Of a DNA stretch of 32,411 nt, positions 21,444 to 24,595 are shown piece after piece; within the stretch, counting starts at the first letter, position 1, and every line of letters begins with the position of its first letter. The DNA comes from a virus: positions 1 to 32,411 of the IMG/VR virus record IMGVR_UViG_3300030110_000183; one strand, written 5' to 3'. A model generated the notes under the pieces. That model did no database searches, was not told the DNA's origin, and was given only the letters and a program-made list of their open reading frames with translations. The translations under genes and the position numbers were made by a program.

Positions 21444-21568
21444 GAGTATCTCCTTCAGTTTGTTCATCAAGCTTTTTTCTCCTAAAATGCTAGTGGTAGA
21501 CCATTGTTATTGGTAGGTCACTGACTTTTGGGGTACACCCCTACGCTTGTAGAGTATACAGAGAATAA

Positions 21569-21946
21569 TCAGCTCAGATCTATCTTAACATTTACATTAC
21601 CTACATGGCTATGCATTACTTTATCTGGTGCTTTAAAGCCAGCTCTATCTAGCAAATCCTTACTTGCTTCAAGGCTTACATACTCAGACTTAGCATTACT
21701 TGATAGCTGAACAATCTTATTCAATGCCTTCGTAGCGTTCATTCCTAAACTATCTGCTATAGCTTGCATCATATACTGTTGCACATGTGGTGTCTTCAAT
21801 GCCTTTGTTGCACTTACTCTTCCACTTTCGCCAGCGCTGTACCCAGCGACTTGGCTTGCGTTCTTAACACTTCCACCATTTGCTACTAACGTATCAACCA
21901 GCTTCTTCTGTTTCTCTGTTAACCTTACAAGTGTCATGCCGATCAT
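21569..21946 (-). CDS. terS: Terminase small subunit
   Basis: 125 residues. LTEKQKKLVDTLVANGGSVKNASQVAGYSAG (about 9-39) is a typical small-terminase helix-turn-helix opening, followed by AT-KALKTPHVQQYMMQA and ALNKIVQLSSNAKSEYVSLEASKDLLDRAG. It recognises packaging DNA and regulates the large subunit. The ATG at 21946 has AAGGTG 4 bases upstream; an in-frame ATG at 21937 lacks one. It is the first gene of the late strand, next to the structured divergent region, which is therefore a plausible site for pac/cos. Confidence 0.85.
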   Translation of the reverse strand: MIGMTLVRLTEKQKKLVDTLVANGGSVKNASQVAGYSAGESGRVSATKALKTPHVQQYMMQAIADSLGMNATKALNKIVQLSSNAKSEYVSLEASKDLLDRAGFKAPDKVMHSHVGNVNVKIDLS

Positions 21947-21980
21947 TCTGCACCTTTTCTTAACTTCATGTCAATAGATT

Positions 21981-21999
21981 AATTGAGCTATATTCAATT
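21981..21999. promoter_or_regulatory. Inverted repeat AATTGA-N7-TCAATT upstream of terS
   Basis: Perfect 6-bp arms with a 7-base spacer, 35 bases upstream of the terS start. The size and AT-richness suit an operator for one of the HTH proteins of the early unit, but nothing links them directly. Confidence 0.35.
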
Positions 22000-22052
22000 T
22001 AGTTCGTTCCTCACCTACCAACTTAGTATTTCAATATGCAATGCAGATGCAC

Positions 22053-22068
22053 ACCCAACAAGTTGGGT
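22053..22068. other. Palindrome ACCCAAC-AA-GTTGGGT
   Basis: Perfect 7-base arms around AA; as RNA it would form a 6-bp stem with a CAAG loop. It is followed on the plus strand by TCTT only, so it is a poor terminator. It may be the 5' boundary element of the structured region or a protein-binding site. Confidence 0.45.
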
Positions 22069-22111
22069 TCTTCGCCTCGCTGAGCCAGTCTCCACTCCAG
22101 CAAGACTGCGT

Positions 22112-22623
22112 TCCTTGTCATGCGTACGTTACACCAGTCTCAACAAGGACTCGAATCTTACTCACATGAAATACGGACACACACACACGAATTCCAATAA
22201 TATGGTCACAGACGTTCGGATTCAGATGCTCCTAGACCCGCATCTGATTTGCCAAACATTGCCTACTAGGAAGTCATTCGGGCGATAGAACCGAATAACG
22301 ATTCCTACTAGTCTATGAGTGGCAAACTTATCCTCATTGTTTGCAAAACATAGTCGCACTGATAGACGTGCTTCCTTGTTTCGTGAAGATCATGAACACC
22401 AGAATTTACCTCGGCAAGCCTCGCCCAAGAGGGCAAGCGAAATATATGATGCGAGCCTACTTGCCTTCGGCAAGCCGCCAATCCGACCCTCGCCCAGTAT
22501 AGTCGTCGTGCCTCCTCCTTACTGGCATATATTTAACTTGGACATTCTGGAGTTCGTGATTACTCGATAGATGTTTTGGTATTCGTATGTGTGATATGTT
22601 TACTGGTTCGGATACCAAGATGT
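22112..22623 (+). ncRNA. Candidate large structured RNA or structured early leader
   Basis: Perfect stems on the plus strand: TCCTTGT/ACAAGGA (22112-22118 with 22143-22149); TCAGATGC/GCATCTGA (22222-22229 with 22240-22247); TTTGCCA/TGGCAAA (22248-22254 with 22320-22326) enclosing TAGGAA/TTCCTA (22267-22272 with 22302-22307) and ATTCGG/CCGAAT (22276-22281 with 22291-22296); GCCC-AAGA-GGGC (22423-22434); CTTGCC-TTC-GGCAAG (22460-22474); and a 15-bp hairpin at 22571-22623. The strand is assigned from the last hairpin lying just before the early ribosome-binding site and from G-U pairs there. No known RNA family is recognised by eye. Confidence 0.4.
22571..22623 (+). promoter_or_regulatory. 15-bp hairpin in the leader of the first early gene
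   Basis: Arms 22571-22585 and 22609-22623 pair over 15 positions: 11 Watson-Crick and 4 G-U pairs, with a 23-base loop. The core GGTAT/ATACC is strong. It ends 20 bases before AAGGAG. G-U pairs favour formation in plus-strand RNA over DNA cruciform. It could protect the mRNA 5' end, regulate translation or be the 3' end of the structured RNA. Confidence 0.55.
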
Positions 22624-22655
22624 TAACTTAAATAAATAAATAAGGAGTATATATT

Positions 22656-23393
22656 ATGAGTAATGTAAATAAAACAAGTAAAAGATATTTCGATCAAGAC
22701 ATTGTAGATAGTGCAGATGCGTTATCTCAGATGCGTAAGTCAAAGCAGTATAAGGCTTTAGAGAAGGCTTCGGCTGGAAATGAGCATATGCTTTTTGATA
22801 TAGCATTTCAGAACATTCTTGGTAATGGTGAAGTATTCAATCCATATGAACTAAGATCTAACATTGATGCAGAGCAGTTACAGTATCAAAGAATGGTCAA
22901 TGGTGAATGGATTGCAGATGACACTCAAGTTCCAGTAGGTCAAATGCTTACCAAGATGCTAACTGAAGACATTCTATTTGCTCACAACAGAACAGATAAG
23001 AATGGGAAGTTAGTTGACTCTATCGCAAAAGGTGAAAGAGTTTATTTGGGTCAACGGAACAAGGCTATCTCAAAGAAAAGAGATAACATTCAAGGTAAGG
23101 CTACTCATAGTGACTTGAGCATTGAGCATGATCTGAAAAGAGCTAATGCGAACAAAGAAGCTACAGAGAAGGTCAAGAACTTTCATCTATATCTTGAGAC
23201 TCTTTACTTCGAGATGACTGGTGAGATATATGAGACTCCGTATCAGAAAGCTAATGATACCAGAGTTGTAGCTAGTCCAGAGTCTACTGCAATGCAAGAA
23301 GCAGAAGCAGAGATCTTGAAGTTGGAACAAGGCTTAGGTCATGCGCCAACTGAAAAGACTGAAGAAGTTCTTGATATCAACACTGTCAAGTAA
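22656..23393 (+). CDS. First early protein, 245 aa, unknown function
   Basis: Begins MSNVNKTSKRYFDQDIVDSA, preceded by a run of AAATAAATAAATAAGGAG. Charged and helical, without membrane segments. It contains LFDIAFQNILGNGEVFNPYEL, a basic middle (RNKAISKKRDNIQGKATHSD) and an acidic C-terminus (QEAEAEILKLEQGLG). I do not recognise the family. As the first gene behind the structured leader it is expected to be expressed early; a host-takeover or replication role is possible but not shown by the sequence. Confidence 0.8.
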   Translation: MSNVNKTSKRYFDQDIVDSADALSQMRKSKQYKALEKASAGNEHMLFDIAFQNILGNGEVFNPYELRSNIDAEQLQYQRMVNGEWIADDTQVPVGQMLTKMLTEDILFAHNRTDKNGKLVDSIAKGERVYLGQRNKAISKKRDNIQGKATHSDLSIEHDLKRANANKEATEKVKNFHLYLETLYFEMTGEIYETPYQKANDTRVVASPESTAMQEAEAEILKLEQGLGHAPTEKTEEVLDINTVK

Positions 23394-23404
23394 CAATCGT
23401 AACC

Positions 23405-23431
23405 GAGGGTCAGAGCTTCATGCTCTGGCTC
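23405..23431 (+). terminator. Hairpin after the first early gene (possible weak terminator)
   Basis: CAGAGC-TTCAT-GCTCTG (23411-23427) is a perfect 6-bp stem, extended by GAG/CTC on the outside. It starts 12 bases after the stop codon. The downstream CACTTTCA is only weakly U-rich, so it may slow or process the transcript more than end it. Confidence 0.4.
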
Positions 23432-23452
23432 TCACTTTCACAGGATAACATC

Positions 23453-23530
23453 ATGAAACATCTTACACAGGAAGACTATGCAAACGCAGTGATATTAGTA
23501 TTAATATTGATACTACTGGCAATGGCATAA
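23453..23530 (+). CDS. Predicted 25-aa single-span membrane peptide
   Basis: Reads MKHLTQEDYANAVILVLILI, then LLAMA. The ATG is preceded by AGGATAAC. Residues 12-25 are wholly hydrophobic after a short polar N-terminus, so it would sit in the inner membrane. Such a composition is unlikely in random AT-rich DNA with a well-placed ribosome-binding site, but the gene is tiny. It could affect host membrane physiology or superinfection; no family is recognised. Confidence 0.45.
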   Translation: MKHLTQEDYANAVILVLILILLAMA

Positions 23531-23771
23531 AGAAGGAGCTAGTCCGACAGATTCGATCTCTAGGATTAGCAACCGCCAGCCTGAGGCGAGAGTGTTGCGT
23601 GAGCAATATCAAATACACTCACAATCCAGTTCATTTTTTCAACAATGAGAATCAACTTCTGATAACACATCCTTCCCAGCTCGAGTAAAGATTTCCCTTC
23701 GGCTGCTTCGCAGATCTTGACTCTTGGTAAGGCCGTGTTGATCAGGTTGTTTAAATAAAAAGGAGAAAGCT
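23531..23771 (+). other. Gene-free 241-bp early spacer with small stem-loops
   Basis: No credible gene on either strand. It contains TTGC-GTGA-GCAA (a GNRA-type loop, near 23594) and, near 23690-23720, AAGAT...ATCTT enclosing CTGC-TTC-GCAG. The minus-strand frame at 23639-23845 lacks a good start and runs against the early strand. The spacer ends in TTTAAATAAAAAGGAGAAAGC before the next gene. It may be a processed leader or a second, smaller structured RNA; nothing firmer can be said. Confidence 0.5.
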
Positions 23772-24035
23772 ATGTTAAAATTTGTAGAAGATATAAATAA
23801 TTTAAGTGTAAGTACTGTGTTAAATGAATATGATGATGCATACATAGAAGATTATCATTACTTTAAACTGAGAAGAAACAATGACATTCAAATATGGAGT
23901 CTTGATGATGCGCATTGGAAGTATGAATTAAATAACGTAGGTAATGAGATGCATCCAAAGGCTAGCTTTAAATCTTTGATGCAAGCATTGAGACATGGTT
24001 TAATATGGAATCATATAGATGAAACACCTAAGTAG
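23772..24035 (+). CDS. Hypothetical early protein, 87 aa
   Basis: Begins MLKFVEDINNLSVSTVLNEY, with the shared AGGAGAAAGC ribosome-binding block. Acidic, aromatic-rich (DDAYIEDYHYFKLRR, IQIWSLDDAHWKYEL). No domain recognised, no membrane segment. Flanked on both sides by structured non-coding DNA, so it may be a single-gene transcript. The function is unknown. Confidence 0.75.
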   Translation: MLKFVEDINNLSVSTVLNEYDDAYIEDYHYFKLRRNNDIQIWSLDDAHWKYELNNVGNEMHPKASFKSLMQALRHGLIWNHIDETPK

Positions 24036-24130
24036 GGAGAGGGTTTCGATACATAACGACCCCTTGAGGGCAAGTAACGATTAATCCCCTACATGTGAGT
24101 GTCTTATTACTCCTTGTGTAAGGCACTCAC
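24032..24130 (+). other. Structured intergenic element with a 12-bp hairpin
   Basis: GTAGGG (24032-24037, overlapping the stop codon) pairs with CCCTAC (24087-24092). Immediately after, GTGAGTGTCTTA (24095-24106) pairs with TAAGGCACTCAC (24119-24130) over 12 positions with one G-U and a 12-base loop. TAACGA occurs twice inside the first domain. There is no U-run after the long hairpin, so it is not a classical terminator. It lies just upstream of a strong promoter and may isolate the two transcripts or act as an RNA element. Confidence 0.6.
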
Positions 24131-24146
24131 CATTGTATGTAACCAG

Positions 24147-24175
24147 TTGATTTTATTATTTAAATTTAATATAAT
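24147..24175 (+). promoter_or_regulatory. Sigma70-type promoter TTGATT-N17-TATAAT
   Basis: A -35 box TTGATT (24147-24152), an ideal 17-base spacer and a perfect -10 TATAAT (24170-24175) lie in AT-rich DNA. Transcription would start near 24182, at the AGGAGAAAGC block, leaving about 12 bases before the ATG at 24194. The early operon from 24194 is therefore probably read by host RNA polymerase, which fits the lack of a phage polymerase. Confidence 0.75.
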
Positions 24176-24193
24176 TTCTATAGGAGAAAGCTT

Positions 24194-24595
24194 ATGACTG
24201 ATGAAGAATTTAGTTATTCAAAAGAAATCTTACGACAAATAAATATGGCAGACCCCAGTGCTATGAGATGTTGGGGTGTAACAGTAGGTATAAACTGCTT
24301 TGCTTTACCAGAGTCTAAAGAACGTAGAGCTGGAATCAAGATGGAGACCAATGGGTTTGTTCATCAAGGCAGAGTTGATGTTGATCTAACATGGGGTGAT
24401 GACTACACTATAAAGTTCTATGACAAGAGAGGTGAAGTCAGCAGAACAATAGAGAGAGTCTATGCTCCAGAGTTATGTCGAGTATTAGACATAGCAATAG
24501 AGAGTGGGAACAGAACACCAGTTAAAGATCTTGAAATGGTACTGTCTCAGACCGGTAATGTTTTACATGCAGATTTAAAAGGAGAAGAAGAATGA
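24194..24595 (+). CDS. Hypothetical early protein, 133 aa
   Basis: Begins MTDEEFSYSKEILRQINMAD. The middle has alternating strands (VDVDLTWGDDYTIKFYDKRG) and a helical acidic C-terminus. It is the first gene behind the TTGATT/TATAAT promoter, and its stop overlaps the next start (ATGA), so it leads an operon. I do not recognise the family; no catalytic motif is evident. Confidence 0.78.
   Translation: MTDEEFSYSKEILRQINMADPSAMRCWGVTVGINCFALPESKERRAGIKMETNGFVHQGRVDVDLTWGDDYTIKFYDKRGEVSRTIERVYAPELCRVLDIAIESGNRTPVKDLEMVLSQTGNVLHADLKGEEE

Follow-up and report, generated by a model that had tools for sequence, protein, structure and literature searches.

A conserved, covariation-supported fold beside the terminase genes of pelagiphage-related phages, most likely a new family of large structured RNA

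Comparison of related phages showed that the noncoding interval beside terS in a podovirus-like genome carries a conserved multihelix predicted fold, arranged as two tandem domains and backed by compensatory changes. We read this region as most likely encoding a large structured phage RNA of a new family, unmatched to known RNA families. The window, that is, the whole stretch of 32,411 nucleotides analyzed here, is a 32.4-kb virus record, and the interval occupies positions 21947 to 22655, between terS on the minus strand and a divergent gene for a 245-amino-acid protein (g245) on the plus strand. The region probably works as a minus-strand RNA of ca. 575 nt, larger in sister phages, a view reached without transcription data.

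The window encodes a set of podovirus proteins (terminase subunits, head-tail adaptor, major head protein, and tail tubular and internal virion proteins), and the named phage closest to it is Pelagibacter phage EXVC031P Hodr (OQ414635), with TerL and TerS 64 and 56% identical, respectively. This relationship connects it with phages of the most abundant bacteria in the ocean, and SAR11, or else a marine bacterium like it, is the probable host by inference. The gene for the small terminase subunit, terS (21569 to 21946, minus strand), matched PHROG 2538 (E value of 2.5e-13). On the other side of the interval, g245 (22656 to 23393, plus strand) is of unknown function, with no PHROG match, no accepted Pfam match, and no structural match for its low-confidence predicted structure (pLDDT of 62.8). 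It diverges fast, with 22 to 60% identity among carriers of the RNA, and was found in every carrier whose contig reaches its locus and at none of 71 other terS loci; in this count, the contigs of three carriers were cut short, and some of the 71 loci were fragments. The g245 protein is a candidate partner of the RNA, a co-occurrence that shared ancestry explains equally well. Directly 3' of g245 lies a short hairpin, GTCAGAGC TTCAT GCTCTGGC (23404 to 23431), kept in relative L002 despite divergence of g245 to 59% identity.

The GC content was 43.3% across the interval, compared with 36.2% for the window, reaching 46.1% in 22020 to 22605 and 47.9% in 22020 to 22520; only 0.2% of 500-nt segments were as GC rich as the latter. 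The value of ca. 47% given for the region by a previous inspection of the letters alone (the sequence-only reading) thus holds for the inner part and not for the full interval. Both GC skew and gene direction switch strand at this point. The absence of a credible gene, also claimed in that reading, was borne out by the relatives: the two plus-strand open reading frames (ORFs) inside the interval (21983 to 22288 and 22319 to 22570) are both hit by insertions or deletions of 1 to 4 nt in alignments of close relatives, on which ground a hidden ORF was rejected; this meets the criterion that a large structured phage RNA be noncoding. Folded as a single sequence, the interval was only moderately unusual (z scores of −2.9 on the plus strand and −4.2 on the minus strand against 20 shuffles). 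The block 22247 to 22546 took rank 2 of 107 on the minus strand, compared with rank 22 on the plus strand; 21947 to 22246 was not outstanding. Nine relatives folded singly gave z scores from −2.6 to −10 on both strands, without strand specificity. Therefore, thermodynamics alone would not settle the fold, and it is the comparison among relatives that does.

These relatives were gathered from IMG/VR contigs by scans with TerS, TerL, g245 members, and a DNA pattern of the core hairpin described below; scans with single g245 members added few new contigs. Ca. 30 related contigs have a noncoding region of 530 to 1,150 nt at the same fixed site between terS and g245. They sort into three mosaic sequence groups: A (the window, L083, L084, L104, L110, L098, L101, L103, L097, L090, L093, L194, and L196), B (L086 to L089, L091, L092, L094 to L096, L099, and L114), and C (L085, L100, L102, L107 to L109, and L111 to L113). 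Some blocks are common to different groups; for instance, the 257 nt at the start of the window's interval have a ca. 62% match with group C. The window's region is 93% identical to that of L083, a similarity left out as evidence of constraint because recent shared ancestry or recombination may explain it. A covariance model of the core, run on 92 sources, matched only group A, indicating different cores in groups B and C. The core DNA pattern was absent from the genome contigs of 84,980 species, and blastn of the region against phage records gave no real match.

Phages that are more distant and lack g245 often carry shorter regions at the same site, many of them GC rich. Some of these beat column shuffles in consensus folding, and few have covarying stems. 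Five of them (L050, L051, L058, L060, and L042) have gene-free regions of ca. 400 to 700 nt, with GC fractions of 0.50 to 0.57, upstream of terS, which may be further structured RNAs.

Compensatory change was evaluated in several ways. RNAalifold consensus energies against column shuffles gave z scores (plus/minus strand) of −7.1/−8.3 for group A, −11.6/−15.7 for group B, and −12.4/−12.0 for group C. Pairs were also counted on named structures of the minus strand, with 500 shuffles and partners slid by 1 to 3 columns as controls. In the core hairpin (alignment A2, 30 bp), 95.6% of the cells were paired and 29 were changed on both sides, versus 9.5 ± 2.3 in shuffled columns. The corresponding values were 97.1% and 108 versus 33.1 ± 4.3 for the group B fold (A3, 153 bp), 97.8% and 28 versus 11.3 ± 2.3 for the window's 5' domain (A5, 65 bp), and 95.3% and 51 versus 16.4 ± 3.6 for its 3' domain (A4, 43 bp, combining the window's group with group C), where 16 pairs were changed on both sides (9.4 ± 1.8 when shuffled). 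In all four alignments, two of them including the window, covariation exceeded every one of the 500 shuffles and sliding the partners destroyed the pairing. Since paired bases change together across relatives, the fold is under selection, and the stems passed the examination in relatives by which the sequence-only reading could have been refuted. The requirement of a covariation-supported secondary structure of >500 nt for a large structured phage noncoding RNA (ncRNA) was also met.

The structures used for A3 to A5 were predicted from the same alignments on which they were tested, which favors them in these counts and makes a structure-free stem search the cleaner test. This search found 29 covarying pairs in group B versus 3.8 with shuffled columns, and 28 versus 3.4 in a second group B alignment; coding controls taken from these phages were near null (6 versus 1.8 and 5 versus 4.2). 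The signal was weaker in the window's own alignments (6 versus 0.7 and 6 versus 1.6). The sequences were few per group (8 to 13) and mutually related, so that cell counts overstate the number of independent events; several stems changed as whole blocks. A pairwise covariation search without a given structure (with an R-scape-like null) was underpowered with 9 to 13 sequences.

The proposed RNA (22026 to 22600, minus strand) is placed by the GC island and by covarying helices running from 22593 to 22026, with a length of ca. 575 nt here and up to ca. 1,000 nt in relatives. There is no clear promoter for it and no intrinsic terminator between it and terS, so neither its 5' nor its 3' end is known, and transcription might read through into terS. 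All helices are given on the minus strand. The 5' domain is closed by a long-range helix of 16 bp, P1, whose 5' arm (22578 to 22593) starts ca. 60 nt from the start of g245 and pairs with a 3' arm (22180 to 22195) ca. 400 nt away. In eight sequences, 100% of the P1 cells were paired and two pairs were changed on both sides. In L090 and L097, the helix is formed by a different sequence (AGGTATTGCC / GGCAATACC), and P1 is maintained with differing sequences in three subgroups. Within the domain, 22423 to 22527 contains two helices (22521 to 22527 with 22476 to 22482, and 22471 to 22475 with a partner in 22423 to 22448), each with two pairs changed on both sides, followed by a hairpin at 22345 to 22382 with 96.9% of its cells paired. 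The core hairpin (22247 to 22329, 30 bp, with conserved internal loops) is common to all of group A, and 7 of 7 pairs of its outer stem covary. Beside it, the small hairpin CAGATGC/GCATCTG (22219 to 22247) reads CAGATTC/GAATCTG in L084, a compensatory change visible in the alignments. The stems listed in the sequence-only reading, among them a nested hairpin at 22248 to 22326 and the adjacent stem at 22222 to 22247, are indeed present. The smaller 3' domain (22026 to 22174), adjoining terS, has a closing helix (22169 to 22174 with 22026 to 22031) supported by covariation in A4, two inner helices (22139 to 22142 with 22081 to 22084, and 22117 to 22124 with 22099 to 22106), and a hairpin at 22038 to 22054.

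The 5' arm of P1 is also part of a local hairpin, TTGGTATTCG...CGGATACCAA (22571 to 22621), better paired on the plus strand and altered in L084. Whether it represents an alternative pairing, a promoter dyad, or a g245 leader hairpin is unresolved.

Wobble pairs reveal the strand because a G.U pair corresponds to C.A when the opposite strand is read. In a strand-unbiased search read in plus orientation, stems with at least four covarying pairs had 0 G.T and 21 C.A, those with at least three had 23 G.T and 40 C.A, and all candidate stems together had 40 G.T and 52 C.A. Independent alignments read on the minus strand gave 21 G.U and 0 A.C where four or more pairs of a stem covaried and, in group B, 26 G.U and 10 A.C where three or more did. 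Given that wobble in the best stems is exclusively minus-strand G.U, the RNA probably reads toward terS, the weaker stems being less clear, and its encoding on the minus strand is, from these patterns, quite likely. The large structured RNA proposed by the sequence-only reading is thus supported by covariation, but more likely on the strand opposite to the plus strand on which its stems were listed there. An RNA on the plus strand, upstream of g245, seems rather improbable, and several observations keep it in play: the wobble totals of the full candidate set do not decide the matter, folding of group C and the 3' domain is about as good on the plus strand, the local hairpin at ca. 22571 to 22621 pairs better there, and four relatives have a terminator-like plus-strand hairpin (AGCAGAC..GTCTGCTTTT) toward the g245 side of the region. 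However, in plus orientation the best stems show C.A and no G.T, and both P1 and the core hold positions that pair only as U.G on the minus strand (one invariant U.G in P1; CG, GU, UA, GC, and UG at core pair 23-63). Shuffle-relative consensus folding also favors the minus strand for groups A and B and the 5' domain, although it shows no such preference in group C or the 3' domain.

With moderate confidence, and inferring transcription, we consider that the conserved two-domain fold works through its structure as a minus-strand, stand-alone ncRNA and not as a leader of terS. The phage would make it during infection, and it may act through a folded, perhaps oligomeric, structure, as proposed for GOLLD and ROOL, an RNA cage of that kind being by definition a homo-oligomeric RNA-only particle; a scaffold or oligomer role for the RNA here is inferred by analogy only. 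A structured 5' leader of the late operon, in which the fold begins the transcript of terS and the structural genes and controls it in cis (by attenuation, antitermination, or translation), is an unlikely alternative that still deserves attention, since a minus-strand RNA shares the strand of terS and lies directly upstream of it with no terminator found in between. Against it, a promoter-like TTGACA-18-CAGAAT (21945 to 21974, minus strand; a consensus match only) precedes terS just downstream of the RNA, its TTGACA recurring at a constant distance from terS in relatives. Its −10-like CAGAAT overlaps the annotated terS start, and, together with the conserved distance, this suggests a separate, leaderless terS mRNA from the next ATG (ca. 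21937). In addition, 575 to 1,000 nt in two domains far exceeds any antitermination or riboswitch leader known to us. A part in the DNA-packaging motor, or a mark on the genome for terminase, in the manner of phi29 packaging RNA (pRNA), would fit a location adjoining terS and terL, with which the RNA probably shares its strand, but is highly improbable for an RNA well above 174 nt without an Rfam match. Moreover, pRNA of the phi29 type partners an ATPase in phages that have no TerS, and this phage encodes both TerS and TerL. We also regard as very unlikely that the inverted repeats act only as DNA (a replication origin, pac/cos site, or cruciform). The strand switch of genes and GC skew, the position beside terS, and several covarying stems with very few wobble pairs of either kind are compatible with this, yet nested helices with closing arms 140 to 400 nt apart are unlike a cruciform, and the strand-specific wobble of the best stems (21 versus 0) is not expected from DNA hairpins. 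A simple promoter or terminator palindrome was rejected, as it leaves the nested long-range helices unexplained.

More tentatively, the minus-strand ncRNA that we favor could be one member of a new giant RNA class at a fixed site beside terS in pelagiphage-like podoviruses, modular and 500 to 1,000 nt long, with whole domains swapped by recombination and long-range closing helices kept, which would form an RNA or RNA-protein particle, perhaps with g245, during infection of marine bacteria; this remains a possibility, short of probable. To our knowledge, very large structured RNAs of bacteria and phages number only a handful. What GOLLD and ROOL do is itself unsettled, and a family unrelated to them by sequence model, with its constant site next to the terminase genes and its invariable protein neighbor in pelagiphage-related phages, would offer a new handle on such RNAs. 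The mosaic groups permit comparison of modules, and, since the nearest named phage is from a Pelagibacter strain kept in culture, it may be feasible to obtain isolates.

No published description of this RNA was found in the open-access literature searched. The Rfam comparison gave no gathering-score match for the window or for any of 16 relatives (GOLLD, ROOL, and phage pRNA included), and positions 21500 to 24200 gave none with the GOLLD and ROOL models at E values of up to 5; membership in GOLLD or ROOL is excluded by this lack of a match. Among known systems, Hodr has the same divergent arrangement at terS but a spacing of just 337 nt from terS to the divergent gene, with no match to the core model (R1, run on Hodr as L177) and no g245 homologue, which was likewise missing from the rest of the phage collection. 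The pRNA of phi29 is also a phage RNA, and the RNA here is likewise close to packaging genes, although it is much larger than the ca. 174 nt of pRNA, TerS is present, and the Rfam pRNA model did not match. ROOL is similar in size range, phage origin, and a complex fold for which no protein partner is known (PMC12286853) and differs in its Rfam model, which found no match, and in that the RNA here is not near tRNA genes, none of which occur in the window. GOLLD is a very large multihelix ncRNA of phages and prophages, also of unknown function, with a conserved 3' part and a variable 5' part (PMC12286853) comparable to the mosaic domains described here; its adjacency to tRNA genes is frequent and not universal (PMC12286853), and it often lies near tRNA islands, whereas this RNA has no tRNA genes nearby and lies beside terS. 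By size, complexity, and phage origin, no known kind comes nearer than GOLLD and ROOL, although the RNA here is a member of neither.
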